Below are positions 36,399-46,795 of a stretch of 49,877 bases of DNA, one piece after another. The first letter of the stretch is position 1, and the number at the start of each line of letters is the position of its first letter. Below the pieces are notes generated by a model that worked only from the letters and a program-made list of their open reading frames with translations, was not told where the DNA came from and did no database searches. Position numbers and translations under genes: made by a program. Source of the stretch: Pseudobdellovibrionaceae bacterium (GTDB taxonomy: Bacteria; Bdellovibrionota; Bdellovibrionia; Bdellovibrionales; Bdellovibrionaceae); contig JAEUWH010000041.1 of NCBI GenBank assembly GCA_016785955.1, positions 1 to 49,877 of the forward strand, given 5' to 3'.

Positions 36399-37010
36399 AT
36401 GAAAATTGATAAAATGACTGCTGAAACCAAAGCTATTGCCCTCTTCCGCAAGGCTGGGGGGATGATGAGAACTGCTCAGGCGATCAAAGCTGGGGTTCAT
36501 CCTGTTATTCTATACAAGCTTCGTGATCAGGGATTGATTGAATCTCTTGAGCGAGGTTTTTATAAACTAACAGATCAGTCAGCAGGTTCAGATCCGCAGC
36601 TTGCCCAAGTGAGCCTGAAATACAAAAACTCCGTTTTGTGCCTGACATCGGCACTTTTTATTCATGAGCTAACGACTCAAATTCCAAGACAAGTTTGCAT
36701 CGCGCTACCCAAGGGGACTCATAGCCCATCAGAAAGCAGCAGTGTTCATTTTATCTTCCTTGCCGATAAACAGTATAAGAGTGGCATTGAAGAAAAAAAT
36801 ATTGGGGGAATTAAATTTAAAGTCTATGACCCTGAAAAGACAATCGTAGACTGTTTTAAGTTTCGCAATAAAATAGGATCTGATTTGGCTGTGGAAGCTT
36901 TGAAGGAATGGAAAAAGAAAAGACCTAAAAATTTGAAGAAACTTCTAGAATACGCTCGCATCTGCCGAGTAGAAAAAATTATGGCACCTTATATTGAGGC
37001 TCTTTCATGA
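36399..37010 (+). CDS. abiEi: AbiEi-type antitoxin of a type IV toxin-antitoxin pair
   Basis: This 203-residue protein has an N-terminal winged helix (about 9-60, MMRTAQAIKAGVHPVILYKLRDQGLI) followed by the AbiEi C-terminal domain, with the conserved GIKFKVYDPEKTIVDCFKFRNKIGSDLAVEAL segment. In this family the antitoxin does not bind the toxin; it counteracts its effect and represses the operon. There is no Shine-Dalgarno sequence before ATG 36399 or the later ATG 36414, and a TATATT lies just upstream, so the message may be leaderless. Its stop overlaps the toxin start (ATGA). Confidence 0.9.
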   Translation: MKIDKMTAETKAIALFRKAGGMMRTAQAIKAGVHPVILYKLRDQGLIESLERGFYKLTDQSAGSDPQLAQVSLKYKNSVLCLTSALFIHELTTQIPRQVCIALPKGTHSPSESSSVHFIFLADKQYKSGIEEKNIGGIKFKVYDPEKTIVDCFKFRNKIGSDLAVEALKEWKKKRPKNLKKLLEYARICRVEKIMAPYIEALS

Positions 37011-38176
37011 CGACAAAAAATATGGCAGCTTCTATTTCAAATAAGCTTCTAAAAATCAGCAAAACTTCAGGCCGTGGATTTAATGAGATCTTAGTTTATT
37101 ACGGGATGGAAAGATTTTTAGCTCGATTGAGTCAGTCAAAGTTTAAAACTCAGTTTGTTCTGAAGGGAGCTTTAGCTTTGCATGTTCTGAAAAGTGATTT
37201 AGCGAGAGCTACAAGAGATATTGATTTTTTGGCGTTTGAATCGAATGACCCGGAGAAAATGAAAAAAGTGATCCAAAAGATCTGTGAAATTCAAATGGAA
37301 GATGGGGTGACTTTTGATTTGAAATCAATTGAGTCTGAAGTCATTAAAGAAGACGCCGATTATGCCGGAGTTAGAATTTCACTCAATGCAAAACTAGATA
37401 CTGCTAAAATTCCACTTCAGCTTGATATTGCTGTGGGCGATTTGATGACGCCGCAACCGGAAGAGTCAAAATTTCCAGTTCTCATCGAAGGAAATGATTT
37501 CAAACTTAAAACCTATCCAAAAGAAACGGTGGTAGCTGAAAAAGTTCAGGCTATGGTAGCTCTTGATATGAGCAATAGCAGGATGAAGGATTTTTTTGAT
37601 ATCTGGTTTTTAGCAACGCACTTTGAGTTTGAAGGATCTTTACTTCAGGAAGCATTGGAGACGACTTTTAAAAATCGAAAAACTGAACTAGTTGCGACAC
37701 TCTCCGTAAATGAACTATCAAAGGTCAAACCCGAAAAAGACGAGCCTGTTAGTTTTGAAAGTTTAGCGGTTTTCAGGCGGGGGCTTAAAAAATTAATTGA
37801 TAAAGGAGAATTAGATAAAAATGTACAAACAGCGATTATTAAAAAGATCGTTCATAAAATCACAATCAAACCAAATGGCTTTGAAATTCACTTCCATGTA
37901 GGCAAGTCCTACTACTCGCGGGAGCTGGGGAATAACCCCAGCTCCCGCATTTTTTCGTTTGAAAAAGATAAAAAAGGGCCTTCGGATTTTGAAAAATCCG
38001 CCGGAAATGGTCAGAATTTTGATTTTTTAAAAGATCGCAGTTCGAGTTTGTTGACAATTGGAGAGCGCTGTCTGGCTTTTGGCTTTCCACAAAAAAACAC
38101 CCGCGCCGGCGATGGCGATCAGCCCGCTGAATCGAATCGCAGTGCGAACCCCCAGCCAGTGGGCGGCCAGGCCTGA
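37007..38176 (+). CDS. abiEii: AbiEii-type nucleotidyltransferase toxin with recombinase-like tail
   Basis: Residues 1-230 are an AbiEii/MenT-type nucleotidyltransferase, a family known to transfer nucleotides, for some members onto tRNA, and so block growth. Key residues: Gly55 in LKGALALHV, the metal ligands Asp71/Asp73 in TRDID, Asp140 in LQLDIAVGD and Lys179 in AEKVQAMV. From about 245 the sequence changes to a stretch (KNVQTAIIKKIVHKITIKPN...) that looks like a serine recombinase C-terminus. The frame then crosses a strong terminator at codons 304-314 and continues, without a stop, antisense into the MFS gene to 38176. The natural product end is therefore uncertain. Confidence 0.8.
   Translation: MTTKNMAASISNKLLKISKTSGRGFNEILVYYGMERFLARLSQSKFKTQFVLKGALALHVLKSDLARATRDIDFLAFESNDPEKMKKVIQKICEIQMEDGVTFDLKSIESEVIKEDADYAGVRISLNAKLDTAKIPLQLDIAVGDLMTPQPEESKFPVLIEGNDFKLKTYPKETVVAEKVQAMVALDMSNSRMKDFFDIWFLATHFEFEGSLLQEALETTFKNRKTELVATLSVNELSKVKPEKDEPVSFESLAVFRRGLKKLIDKGELDKNVQTAIIKKIVHKITIKPNGFEIHFHVGKSYYSRELGNNPSSRIFSFEKDKKGPSDFEKSAGNGQNFDFLKDRSSSLLTIGERCLAFGFPQKNTRAGDGDQPAESNRSANPQPVGGQA
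37918..37955 (+). terminator. Strong intrinsic terminator inside the toxin frame
   Basis: A perfect 13-bp stem, GCGGGAGCTGGGG (37918-37930) with CCCCAGCTCCCGC (37936-37948), encloses an AATAA loop. A run of six T follows at 37950-37955. It should end plus-strand transcription of abiE, although the reading frame of the toxin has no stop before it. Confidence 0.88.
37970..38004 (-). terminator. Likely terminator of the rib-MFS operon
   Basis: On the minus strand a hairpin forms from arms CGGATTTT and AAAATCCG (37983-38000) with a two-base loop, extended by outer CC/GG pairs after a mismatch. It is followed by GGCCC and a T run (plus-strand A run at 37970-37975). It lies 23-57 bases after the MFS stop, in the right place to end that operon. 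Confidence 0.55.
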
Positions 38177-39241
38177 TTCCCATTCGCTTAACTCATCCGA
38201 GGCGTTAACTAAAAAATTATTTAATGCATATACGCGGCCCTTGAGGATGGCGGGGGTTTCGAGTTGCAGGATACATTCACGCACGGTTAAGCTGATGGCA
38301 TCAAATATGCCGGCTCCAAACAATAGAATGTAACTCAAGTGTAGTGAAGGGGATTCGGCCAGGAAAAGATGGCAGATTCCGTAGCCAAATGTAGCGAGAA
38401 ATAATTTTTCGGCCCATCGGTCTCGTGCATTTTTTTGTAACCGTATCCAGGTGCCAAAAATAATTCCTGCGGGCAGAGCTGATTTTAAGATACCAATGTC
38501 GATCGTCGAGTTTTGTCCATCGTGAAGAAATGGCAATAGGGAGGCGGCCCCGGCAAAAAGTACAATAAAAAAATCCAGCAGTAGTGATGCATGTAATTTA
38601 AAATTGTTTTTTAAAAATGGTAAAAGGGATTGGGGTGAAGAGTGATTTACGGCATGGGAGGTTATGGTGGCTGATGAGGTTTCCAATGTGTGGATGGTTT
38701 TCGTTAAAAATTGAACGATATAAAGTTGGCAAAAAAAGGAAAGACCTATGCACGAGCTTGCGATTATTAACGATACCTGTCCAGACCCCAGGATGCCGGC
38801 GAGTAGAGGGGCTAAAAACGAAGACATTTGCCATGACAATGTAGAGAGGTTGACCCAGCGATCTTTTTGGTTTTTCTCTTTGATGAGATCACCAAAAACC
38901 GTGAACTGAGAAATACTGCGAAAGTTTCGTGCCACAGCCAGGCATGCTGTCGCGGCGATGATAGGCCAGAATGTTTGGGGGTTAACTATGGTCAGCCCCA
39001 GCGTCAGGCCAAGTAAAATCATATGAGACGTCAAAATGGCGTTGCGTTTAGATATACGATCTACGAGGTCACCCAGAGGGAAGGCGAATGCGAGCGAGGC
39101 GATGGTCGCTGCGAGGCCCAGTTGGCTTAACCCAAGGGCATCGATATTGTTTTCTACCAGGCGAAAAATAAATGTGCAGGTTAAAATCTGTAGTCCAAAA
39201 ACGCTGGCTGCTCGTGAGATCAGAAAGGCAATTAAAGGCAT
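38027..39241 (-). CDS. MFS transporter
   Basis: This is a major facilitator superfamily protein of 404 residues with about twelve hydrophobic helices. The loop motif between helices 2 and 3 is present as PLGDLVDRISKRN. The order of helices resembles exporters of the EntS/MFS_3 group. It starts at the last base of the upstream gene's stop (TAATG), so it is translated with the riboflavin genes. Export of a flavin or related compound is a possible but untested role. Its 3' end overlaps the toxin frame on the other strand by 150 bases. Confidence 0.82.
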   Translation of the reverse strand: MPLIAFLISRAASVFGLQILTCTFIFRLVENNIDALGLSQLGLAATIASLAFAFPLGDLVDRISKRNAILTSHMILLGLTLGLTIVNPQTFWPIIAATACLAVARNFRSISQFTVFGDLIKEKNQKDRWVNLSTLSWQMSSFLAPLLAGILGSGQVSLIIASSCIGLSFFCQLYIVQFLTKTIHTLETSSATITSHAVNHSSPQSLLPFLKNNFKLHASLLLDFFIVLFAGAASLLPFLHDGQNSTIDIGILKSALPAGIIFGTWIRLQKNARDRWAEKLFLATFGYGICHLFLAESPSLHLSYILLFGAGIFDAISLTVRECILQLETPAILKGRVYALNNFLVNASDELSEWESGLAAHWLGVRTAIRFSGLIAIAGAGVFLWKAKSQTALSNCQQTRTAIF

Positions 39242-42832: not shown

Positions 42833-43196
42833 GCGTCTACTCCTTTTCATCTCTATTATTAAATATGTGTGTATGCACTATTTATACCCAAATTTGATGT
42901 TGGAGTGGGAGTCCTGCAAAGCTGTCTAAATGACAAAAAAATTGCATGGTAGAGGAAAAACGCCCCAAGTGTATCCCTATATTCCAGAGAAGATATCGTG
43001 TTGTATATGTTAGTTATATCGGACGAAGACGTAGGCAAAGTGGTAATGAAGTCGATCTAGAAAGGTTGGTAAGAACACAACCTAGATAGGTTGGTAATGA
43101 CACTAGATGGTTGGTAAAGACAGACAGTTGTTAACGAGACAATGACTGAGCGCAAACAACTTTCAACCCGAAATCTGATAGATTAAGCTGCGTCTT
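42833..43196. other. Intergenic region with dispersed repeats
   Basis: About 360 bases separate the SDR gene from the DUF72 gene, and both may start in it. I see no reading frame with a ribosome site. The right half holds the tandem repeat copies listed separately. No T-tailed hairpin is evident. Confidence 0.5.
43056..43122 (+). repeat. Three tandem copies of the CTAGATAGGTTGGTAATGAC-type repeat
   Basis: Units start at about 43056 (TCTAGAAAGGTTGGTAAGAA...), 43081 (CCTAGATAGGTTGGTAATGA...) and 43103 (CTAGATGGTTGGTAAAGAC...). The middle unit is the full 22-base form also found inverted at 45224-45245 and, but for its first base, at 46774-46795. A partial unit, TGGTAATGAA, precedes at 43041. 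Repetition at three intergenic sites within 4 kb suggests a mobile or protein-binding repeat. Confidence 0.75.
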
Positions 43197-44922: not shown

Positions 44923-45201
44923 TTATCTGACGATGTGCCGCTCGCACATCGTGGCTTCAATTTCAATCCAGTGCCGCGGCATTGAACGTCGAATCGACTC
45001 AAATGTATTATGGGTGTGGAATATGTTGTATTCTTCAACGGAACGCAGCTCTTCACAGGACACCCGTTGATGGTTGTCTTGAACATCGAGGGAGTCGACG
45101 TAGATATCCAGGTTTGTGCCGTATTTATTTTTGGGGATAGCGGTTTTCGTGTAACGTTTGTTTTTAAAAAGATCTTTTTTTTGATTTTGAACGTGTGGCA
45201 T
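44923..45201 (-). CDS. Small hypothetical protein
   Basis: This 92-residue frame is preceded by a strong AGGAGG site 5 bases before ATG 45201, which makes it a real gene in my view. The product is basic at the N-terminus (VQNQKKDLFKNKRYTKT) and acidic in the middle, with no signal peptide or membrane helix. I do not recognise it. It lies next to a copy of the dispersed repeat and shares the minus strand with the AbiEi-TetR gene upstream. Confidence 0.6.
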   Translation of the reverse strand: MPHVQNQKKDLFKNKRYTKTAIPKNKYGTNLDIYVDSLDVQDNHQRVSCEELRSVEEYNIFHTHNTFESIRRSMPRHWIEIEATMCERHIVR

Positions 45202-45223: not shown

Positions 45224-45245
45224 TGTCATTACCAACCTATCTAGG
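45224..45245 (-). repeat. Single inverted copy of the 22-bp dispersed repeat
   Basis: The reverse complement of this stretch reads CCTAGATAGGTTGGTAATGA followed by CA, an exact match to the 43081 unit. It overlaps by one base a hairpin at 45245-45270. Confidence 0.75.
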
Positions 45246-45270
45246 TCTGGCAGATGTTGATCTGCCAGAC
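45245..45270. repeat. 11-bp hairpin abutting the dispersed repeat
   Basis: GTCTGGCAGAT and ATCTGCCAGAC pair perfectly around a GTTG loop. No T run follows on either strand, so it is not a standard intrinsic terminator, though it sits 45-70 bases after the stop of the AbiEi-TetR gene. It could be a transcript-end stabiliser or part of a mobile-element end. Confidence 0.6.
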
Positions 45271-45314: not shown

Positions 45315-46601
45315 TTAAAGTGGAGAGAAGGCAACTTTTATAAGAGTGTCAACTAACGTATTTTTATACTCATCCAGAAAGCTATGTTTGGCCGTTTGTA
45401 ACTTTAGTTTATCGATGTAGTACCAGCGCATGATGGCGTATTGATCCATTGATTGGGCGACCATGGTCGCTCGTGCTTCTGCGATTTGATAACTGATATG
45501 AGGGAGGTCTCGTTGAATTAGGCGGGCGATGAATTCGATCATTTTGCTACAAATGTCTTCAATAAGAACTTTGGAAACATTGCTATTTTCGGCGATCGTC
45601 CACATCTGAATGCGGTAATTAAATTCGTCTTGGTCTGTGGCGTTTAGAATCGATAGCAGCATGTCCTGCAGGAATGCAACAGATTCAGGGGGGAGGTCGA
45701 TAAACATTCCAGGAATGATAGAGTTGCGAACACGACGTTCCAGAGCGGTGTGTACGGTTAAAATGATAGTGCGACGACTAGAAAAATATTGTGCCACCGT
45801 GGACAACGGTACGCCGGCCTCGTCAGCCAATGCTTGTGTTCCTAGGCCTGAAGCACCTTTTTGAGAATAAATTGTTAGGGCGGCATCCAGCAGTCTAATA
45901 CGGATGGCCTCGTGCGGATCGTTAACTTCCAGGCGCCAGGGTGCGGTGTTTGGCCCTTTTGAATCAAGATAGTCTTCGTCGAAACGAATTTTTTTTAAAC
46001 TTTTTTCGATCGATGTTTTAAGAAGTGCATCGTACTCGCGAATGCGGTCAATGTTGACGTTGCCAAGCCGTAGATATTCTTTCAAAACTTGTCGTTTTAA
46101 GTTTTCACTCAGGTCATGTAAAAATAATTCAGCGAGTGAGCGTTCTGTGTCGTAAATAGCGATTGTGCGTTCATATAGTTTGCTTGATGTGATGCCAATC
46201 ATACGTCGAGGGCTGACGCGGTGAAAATGAATTAATTTGTTTTTTTGATTTTTACTGCGGTCGATGTCGACTTCGATGCGTTGGGGATCATGGGGTAAAA
46301 GACCATGAAATCGCAGGGCCGTTTTTCCGGATAAAATAGATTCGGGAAAAAATTCGGCGACAATTAAAATTTCAGCTTGGTGACGAGAAAGTCCATCGGT
46401 GCGATAGTAGCCGCTACCAACGGGAAAAATTTTTTTCAAGCGAACGGCATTTTCGACGATGGATCTTTTGCCATAGGCTTCCATCAGCTGCGCTCGAGTG
46501 TATATCGCCGGCACATCTAGCTTAAGAGATGCTTTTGTCATATCACAAACTAAAGCAAATAAGTTTAGAGGTGGCAAGAGTGCAGGCTTTGATGAATTCA
46601 C
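45315..46601 (-). CDS. AbiEi-like / TetR fusion regulator
   Basis: This 428-residue protein has two parts. Residues about 30-190 look like an AbiEi-type protein: a winged-helix start (YTRAQLMEAYGKRSIVENAVRLKKIFPV) and a C-terminal core with ILSGKTALRFHGLL and YERTIAIYDTERSLAELF. Residues about 230-420 are a TetR regulator with helix-turn-helix LADEAGVPLSTVAQYFSSRRTI. No AbiEii toxin gene is nearby. It probably is a repressor with two DNA-binding modules. The start is GTG 46601 or ATG 46541; neither has a good ribosome site. A palindrome lies 18 bases upstream. Confidence 0.75.
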   Translation of the reverse strand: MNSSKPALLPPLNLFALVCDMTKASLKLDVPAIYTRAQLMEAYGKRSIVENAVRLKKIFPVGSGYYRTDGLSRHQAEILIVAEFFPESILSGKTALRFHGLLPHDPQRIEVDIDRSKNQKNKLIHFHRVSPRRMIGITSSKLYERTIAIYDTERSLAELFLHDLSENLKRQVLKEYLRLGNVNIDRIREYDALLKTSIEKSLKKIRFDEDYLDSKGPNTAPWRLEVNDPHEAIRIRLLDAALTIYSQKGASGLGTQALADEAGVPLSTVAQYFSSRRTIILTVHTALERRVRNSIIPGMFIDLPPESVAFLQDMLLSILNATDQDEFNYRIQMWTIAENSNVSKVLIEDICSKMIEFIARLIQRDLPHISYQIAEARATMVAQSMDQYAIMRWYYIDKLKLQTAKHSFLDEYKNTLVDTLIKVAFSPL

Positions 46602-46618
46602 TATTTTTCAAAACATGT

Positions 46619-46636
46619 CGCAAACTAGAGTTTGCG
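46619..46636. promoter_or_regulatory. Candidate operator palindrome of the AbiEi-TetR gene
   Basis: CGCAAACT and AGTTTGCG form an 8-bp inverted repeat separated by two bases. The spacing and size fit a TetR-type operator, and it lies 18 bases upstream of the GTG start, where binding would block transcription. Autoregulation is inferred. Confidence 0.5.
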
Positions 46637-46737
46637 GCATAAAGGGTAATTCTCTTGTAGAAAAAAACAGAAGGTAAAACGATTTAACTATAACGTTTGT
46701 GTGTCTATATTTGGTTATGTTACGTCGGGACTAATGA

Positions 46738-46795
46738 CCTAGATGGATTTGTGATGACAGTTGGTAATGATGATCTAGATAGGTTGGTAATGACA
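46738..46795 (+). repeat. Two more copies of the dispersed repeat
   Basis: A degenerate unit begins at 46738 (CCTAGATGGATTTGTGATGA...) and a near-perfect one at 46774 (TCTAGATAGGTTGGTAATGA...). A partial GTTGGTAATGA lies between. The orientation is the same as at 43056-43122. Confidence 0.72.

Follow-up and report, generated by a model that had tools for sequence, protein, structure and literature searches.

An AbiEi-type antitoxin domain fused to a TetR-type regulator and devoid of an adjacent toxin in a Pseudobdellovibrionaceae bacterium

Results

A single gene of a Pseudobdellovibrionaceae bacterium (45315–46601, minus strand) encodes a complete AbiEi-type antitoxin domain followed by a complete TetR-type regulator. 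It lies in a stretch of 49,877 nucleotides, hereafter the window, which makes up contig C65 in a genome of 4.34 Mb that is 99.9% complete. The nearest named records come from Bdellovibrio, Bacteriovoracaceae and Oligoflexia, which makes membership of Bdellovibrionota very likely. The sequence and the comparison with relatives show that an AbiE antitoxin gene, formerly stand-alone, was parted from its AbiEii toxin and joined in frame with a TetR regulator. Both halves are of known types; it is the AbiEi–TetR architecture and the paired losses described below that are new. Our preferred reading, to which we give about an even chance, is that the fusion is a private, single-gene, probably ligand-responsive autorepressor in which DNA targeting has passed to the TetR head.

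The fusion is a single chain made of two complete domains

The frame at 45315–46601(-) is open over 428 codons, the GTG at 46601 being its longest possible start, and its codon-position composition is similar to that of the neighbouring genes. In the alignment, M21 (46541) is in register with the starts of 19 of 20 relatives, and the segment surrounding it, TTGTGATATG, is similar to the relatives' TTGTAACATG. Judging from these sequences, translation probably starts at M21, which would yield a 408-aa protein, and the GTG is doubtful. Along the minus strand, the chain begins with an AbiEi winged-helix DNA-binding domain (residues 32–70, 46392–46508) and the AbiEi C-terminal, antitoxin/NTase-like domain (residues 71–205, 45987–46391), both delimited by PADLOC profile, predicted fold and structure match and the latter by the alignment as well. 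The AbiEi part reaches its natural end, and the relatives end in the alignment where a hydrophilic linker of ~25 residues begins (residues 206–231, 45909–45986). Then come the TetR helix-turn-helix (residues 232–280, 45762–45908), which also has phmmer matches to TetR structures, and a helical C-terminal domain of ligand/dimer type (residues 281–428, 45318–45761). No internal start codon was found in residues 190–245, so that the TetR half is not easily made alone and both halves belong to one chain.

The N-terminal half had been read, from the letters only, as an AbiEi winged helix and core. The domain search and structure prediction put forward as a check were run, and this half both scores and folds as AbiEi. 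Residues 32–196 matched the PADLOC AbiEi model PDLC02225 (E=3.1e-24), and 13 more PADLOC AbiEi models matched at E<3e-5. Pfam and NCBIfam searches returned no AbiEi match for this half, hence the assignment rests on PADLOC, the relatives and the fold. An AlphaFold2 model of residues 21–220, built from the relatives, reached a pLDDT of 91.8, and its best structural match was the Streptococcus agalactiae AbiEi, 6y8q (Foldseek 2.5e-10; VIA Z 15.0, 184 residues aligned, rmsd 6.1), the next-best family being that of Rv2827c (Z 8.9). At the sequence level, too, a profile made of the N-terminal half and its relatives picked out PDB entries of AbiEi and AbiGI (E ~3e-14).

As for the second half, residues 237–280 matched Pfam TetR_N (PF00440) with 31 bits against a cutoff of 24. 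It was modelled separately, as a joint alignment put TetR rows onto AbiEi. The AlphaFold2 model of residues 222–428 shows nine helices (pLDDT 86.3), and Foldseek aligned it with TetR structures, many full-length TetR proteins among them, over nearly the full length (TM 0.5–0.76). The claim that a complete TetR regulator sits in the same chain is thus borne out by the profile match, the fold and the lack of an internal start. The TetR half is very divergent, with at most ~26% identity across its length; a sister lineage was sought, and the tree gave no resolved placement.

The fusion has lost a conserved arginine and the ancestral operator

Six alignment columns are identical in all 20 relatives. 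Five of them, S91, D112, R128, Y150 and R154, are retained in the fusion. The sixth, an Arg of the recognition helix in 20/20 relatives, is Asn51 in the fusion (codon 46449–46451, minus strand), and the aligned position of the S. agalactiae AbiEi is also Arg. The winged helix remains basic, with a recognition-helix charge of +4, so DNA binding by the AbiEi head may be altered rather than lost.

The relatives carry a candidate operator, an inverted repeat resembling TTACCACA-N11-TGTGGTAA that ends just 5' of the start codon. Nine of the 12 relatives compared (L015–L018, L020, L021, L024, L025 and L034) reach 12–16 of 16, with a spacing of 11–12 and mostly at -36/-37, and the repeat is weak or absent in L019, L022 and L023. 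The fusion promoter scores 10 of 16, which is the level of shuffled sequence, with a possible relic of the operator's left half at -36; as the relatives themselves served, post hoc, to define the motif, this contrast is descriptive. The AbiEi head, changed at a key residue, may no longer bind the old site.

The sequence-only reading had proposed that an antitoxin was reused as a two-headed repressor. The reuse gains support from the two co-occurring losses, that of the recognition-helix Arg and that of the ancestral operator, as judged from the alignments; that the product is a repressor with two heads is, for its part, inferred.

No toxin of the ancestral clade is present in the genome

The N-terminal half has its closest relatives (~30–38% identity) in other families of the phylum, where they are AbiEi proteins that stand alone and comprise ~195 residues. 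All 16 that were checked (L015–L018, L019–L025, L034 and L112–L115) directly adjoin an AbiEii of one clade. Next to the fusion gene, no NTase or AbiEii was found at either flank, so the earlier remark that no toxin stands beside it holds. A probe for the clade scores members at E ~1e-57 to 1e-83; in the window genome it gave only 4e-6 and 0.003, both for other subfamilies, and a same-clade toxin in trans was therefore rejected. These two weak matches are the AbiEii at 37007–38176 and an AbiEii in contig C75, each with its own AbiEi. The former belongs to a complete AbiE pair 8 kb from the fusion gene (36399–38176, plus strand), unrelated to the fusion, in which an AbiEi antitoxin (36399–37010, Pfam AbiEi_4 above cutoff) precedes the nucleotidyltransferase toxin (37007–38176, Pfam AbiEii E=1e-43). 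A third pair, in contig C32, was judged by eye from two overlapping reading frames. None of these trans-encoded AbiEii toxins is the natural partner of the fusion.

We consider it very unlikely that the fusion is a partner or cross-regulator of these three AbiE pairs. The proximity of one pair and the weak probe matches of two toxins would fit such a role, but every pair has its own adjacent antitoxin, and the nearby one is 19% identical to the N-terminal half of the fusion (E=0.028) and has a different operator-like repeat.

Separately, the AbiEii at 37007–38176(+) has a C-terminal extension that overlaps an antisense MFS gene (38027–39241). This extension, which we take to resemble a serine recombinase tail, possibly reflects readthrough into inserted DNA.

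More distant AbiE pairs, with the toxin gene first, also occur within the organism's own genus and family (L002–L004) and on the Bdellovibrio plasmid pBdHM1 (L012); two of these pairs adjoin genes similar to those for conjugation coupling proteins.

The strongest rival to our preferred reading, though in our view an unlikely one, is that the fusion acts in trans as an anti-addiction antitoxin, neutralising AbiEii toxins of the ancestral clade when plasmids or conjugative elements bring them in, while its TetR half controls expression. It owes this rank to clade toxins travelling on plasmids in the group and to the intact antitoxin core. Indeed, AbiE pairs of the clade are found on the Bdellovibrio plasmid and, within the genus and family, next to genes of conjugation type (L002, L004), and every residue of the AbiEi C-terminal domain that is invariant in the relatives is kept. 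This domain is reportedly enough for neutralisation, according to work cited in PMC8436566. On the other hand, the genome has no clade toxin, and the fusion is only 20–27% identical to the plasmid-type antitoxins. A further point against this role is that antitoxins, even when related, often neutralise only the toxin with which they are paired.

A palindrome upstream of the fusion gene is a candidate TetR operator

Upstream of the fusion gene lies a near-perfect palindrome, ATGTCGCAAACT-AG-AGTTTGCGGCAT (46615–46640), with TetR-like geometry, that is, 12-nt arms and a 2-bp gap. Its core has a single exact copy in the 4.34-Mb genome. The same segment has a weak score as a terminator-like stem, and it could be a 5' UTR hairpin instead of an operator. 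Downstream of the gene, a hairpin with an 11-bp stem and a 4-nt loop (45245–45270) marks a possible transcript end. No target gene for the fusion was evident other than itself.

In the autorepressor reading, the TetR half would make the fusion dimeric and direct it to the palindrome in front of its own gene, and the AbiEi half would be either a second head that binds DNA with a new specificity or a module for interaction with proteins. AbiEi proteins are known as monomers, and the S. agalactiae AbiEi binds 23-bp inverted repeats co-operatively, proposedly via its C-terminal domain (PMC7319586). A TetR dimer would provide AbiEi with permanent dimerisation and a new address, and for this reason we favour an autorepressor guided by its TetR head. 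We counted against it that the fusion occurs in one genome only, that it has no second target gene, that the palindrome is maybe a hairpin and that the winged helix is still basic.

The flanking 22-bp repeats belong to a dispersed family

The 22-bp repeats around the gene had been named for footprinting, as possible operators of the fusion. They turned out to belong to a dispersed family of 21–24-bp repeats, CTAGATAGGTTGGTAATGACA, with 111 copies genome-wide (≤3 mismatches) and none for the reversed control. One copy lies in the downstream flank (45224–45247, minus strand), two 36-nt direct copies lie in the upstream flank (46724–46795, plus strand), and further copies were found at 43030–43125. 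Nearly all of 20 repeat loci inspected (L067–L086) were intergenic, and many lay between convergent genes. Given this number and these positions, we rejected the repeats as private operators of the fusion. Copies often carry partial tandem units, GTTGGTAATGACA, and a search at ≤1 mismatch found the family in none of the phylum's remaining 368 genomes.

Could the fusion instead be the DNA-binding protein of the whole family, its AbiEi head reading TTGGTAAT owing to the Arg51-to-Asn change and its TetR dimer bridging copies? The repeat core TTGGTAAT is similar to the relatives' operator half-site, GTGGTAA, and both fusion and repeat are confined to one genome of 369. The likeness of the core, TGGTAA, to that half-site is at a chance level of ~12% by our own rough estimate, and we regard this idea as extremely improbable. 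If it were true, a toxin–antitoxin system would have given rise to a regulator or organiser that is species-specific and acts across the chromosome.

The fusion was found in one genome only

A survey of other genomes, suggested together with the first reading, was run and found no fusion beyond the window genome. The fusion apart, none of the proteins in 369 phylum genomes spans both an AbiEi and a TetR half, and the AbiEi matches in 141 genomes of the order are confined to frames of ≤292 aa. Scans of 84,980 species genomes with short peptide patterns, and of viral contigs and plasmids, started from a single protein or an alignment, gave stand-alone AbiEi only, although such pattern-based scans have limited sensitivity and reach close relatives only. 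A literature search, conducted mostly outside subscription papers, retrieved no paper on AbiEi–TetR or other AbiEi domain fusions. The architecture, which the first reading did not recognise as a described one, is therefore absent from the libraries, genome sets and literature searched. The gene appears as an insertion at a LysR–DUF72–RmuC locus, which three congeners keep without the fusion, and five congeners lack the fusion altogether. A neighbouring open reading frame at 44923–45201(-) encodes a product with 41–43% matches in the same locus of congeners (L095, L096) and no Pfam match.

Such a distribution might reflect a neutral or decaying relic, that is, a chance fusion after toxin loss, expressed or not, that has no selected role. 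The singleton status among the 369 genomes, its absence from the congeners and the strong divergence of the TetR half would all agree with this. Nevertheless, 408–428 codons have stayed open, both folds are confidently predicted, the codon-position composition is that of the neighbours, and the invariant AbiEi core is retained. We thus rate a relic as quite unlikely.

Discussion

The N-terminal half of the fusion resembles the AbiEi antitoxins of type IV AbiE systems (S. agalactiae 6y8q, AbiGI 9hlo and Mycobacterium tuberculosis Rv2827c, 1zel) in combining a winged helix with an NTase-like C-terminal domain, in matching over the full length and in its conserved core residues. It differs from them in having no adjacent AbiEii, no ancestral operator, a replaced recognition-helix Arg and an appended TetR regulator. 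Likewise, it shares with TetR/AcrR regulators the TetR_N helix-turn-helix, the predicted nine-helix fold and an upstream palindrome, but it bears a ~200-residue antitoxin N-terminal to the helix-turn-helix and has no evident neighbouring target gene.

Four genomes from this bacterial family (L011, L104, L106 and L108) encode two-domain proteins in which a PDC-M21A-like N-terminal domain precedes a TetR-like half, so TetR joined to other domains is not unique to this case. Unlike in the fusion, however, their N-terminal domain, identified by profile in L011 (964–2067, plus strand) and by visual inspection in the remaining genomes, is unrelated to AbiEi. L011 was on this ground rejected as a second AbiEi–TetR fusion. 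The tree link of these proteins to the TetR half of the fusion is weak (79/79). Three of the four are syntenic beside lon and have a degenerate helix-turn-helix.

For the stand-alone AbiEi relatives, the inverted repeat TTACCACA-N11-TGTGGTAA is a candidate operator of an entire Bdellovibrionota clade of AbiE systems that are so far uncharacterised. As for the fusion, an antitoxin without its toxin, its ancestral operator and a key DNA-contact residue, and equipped with a ligand-type regulator, makes a clear case, and the proposed route from an addiction module to ordinary gene regulation becomes testable in one protein.
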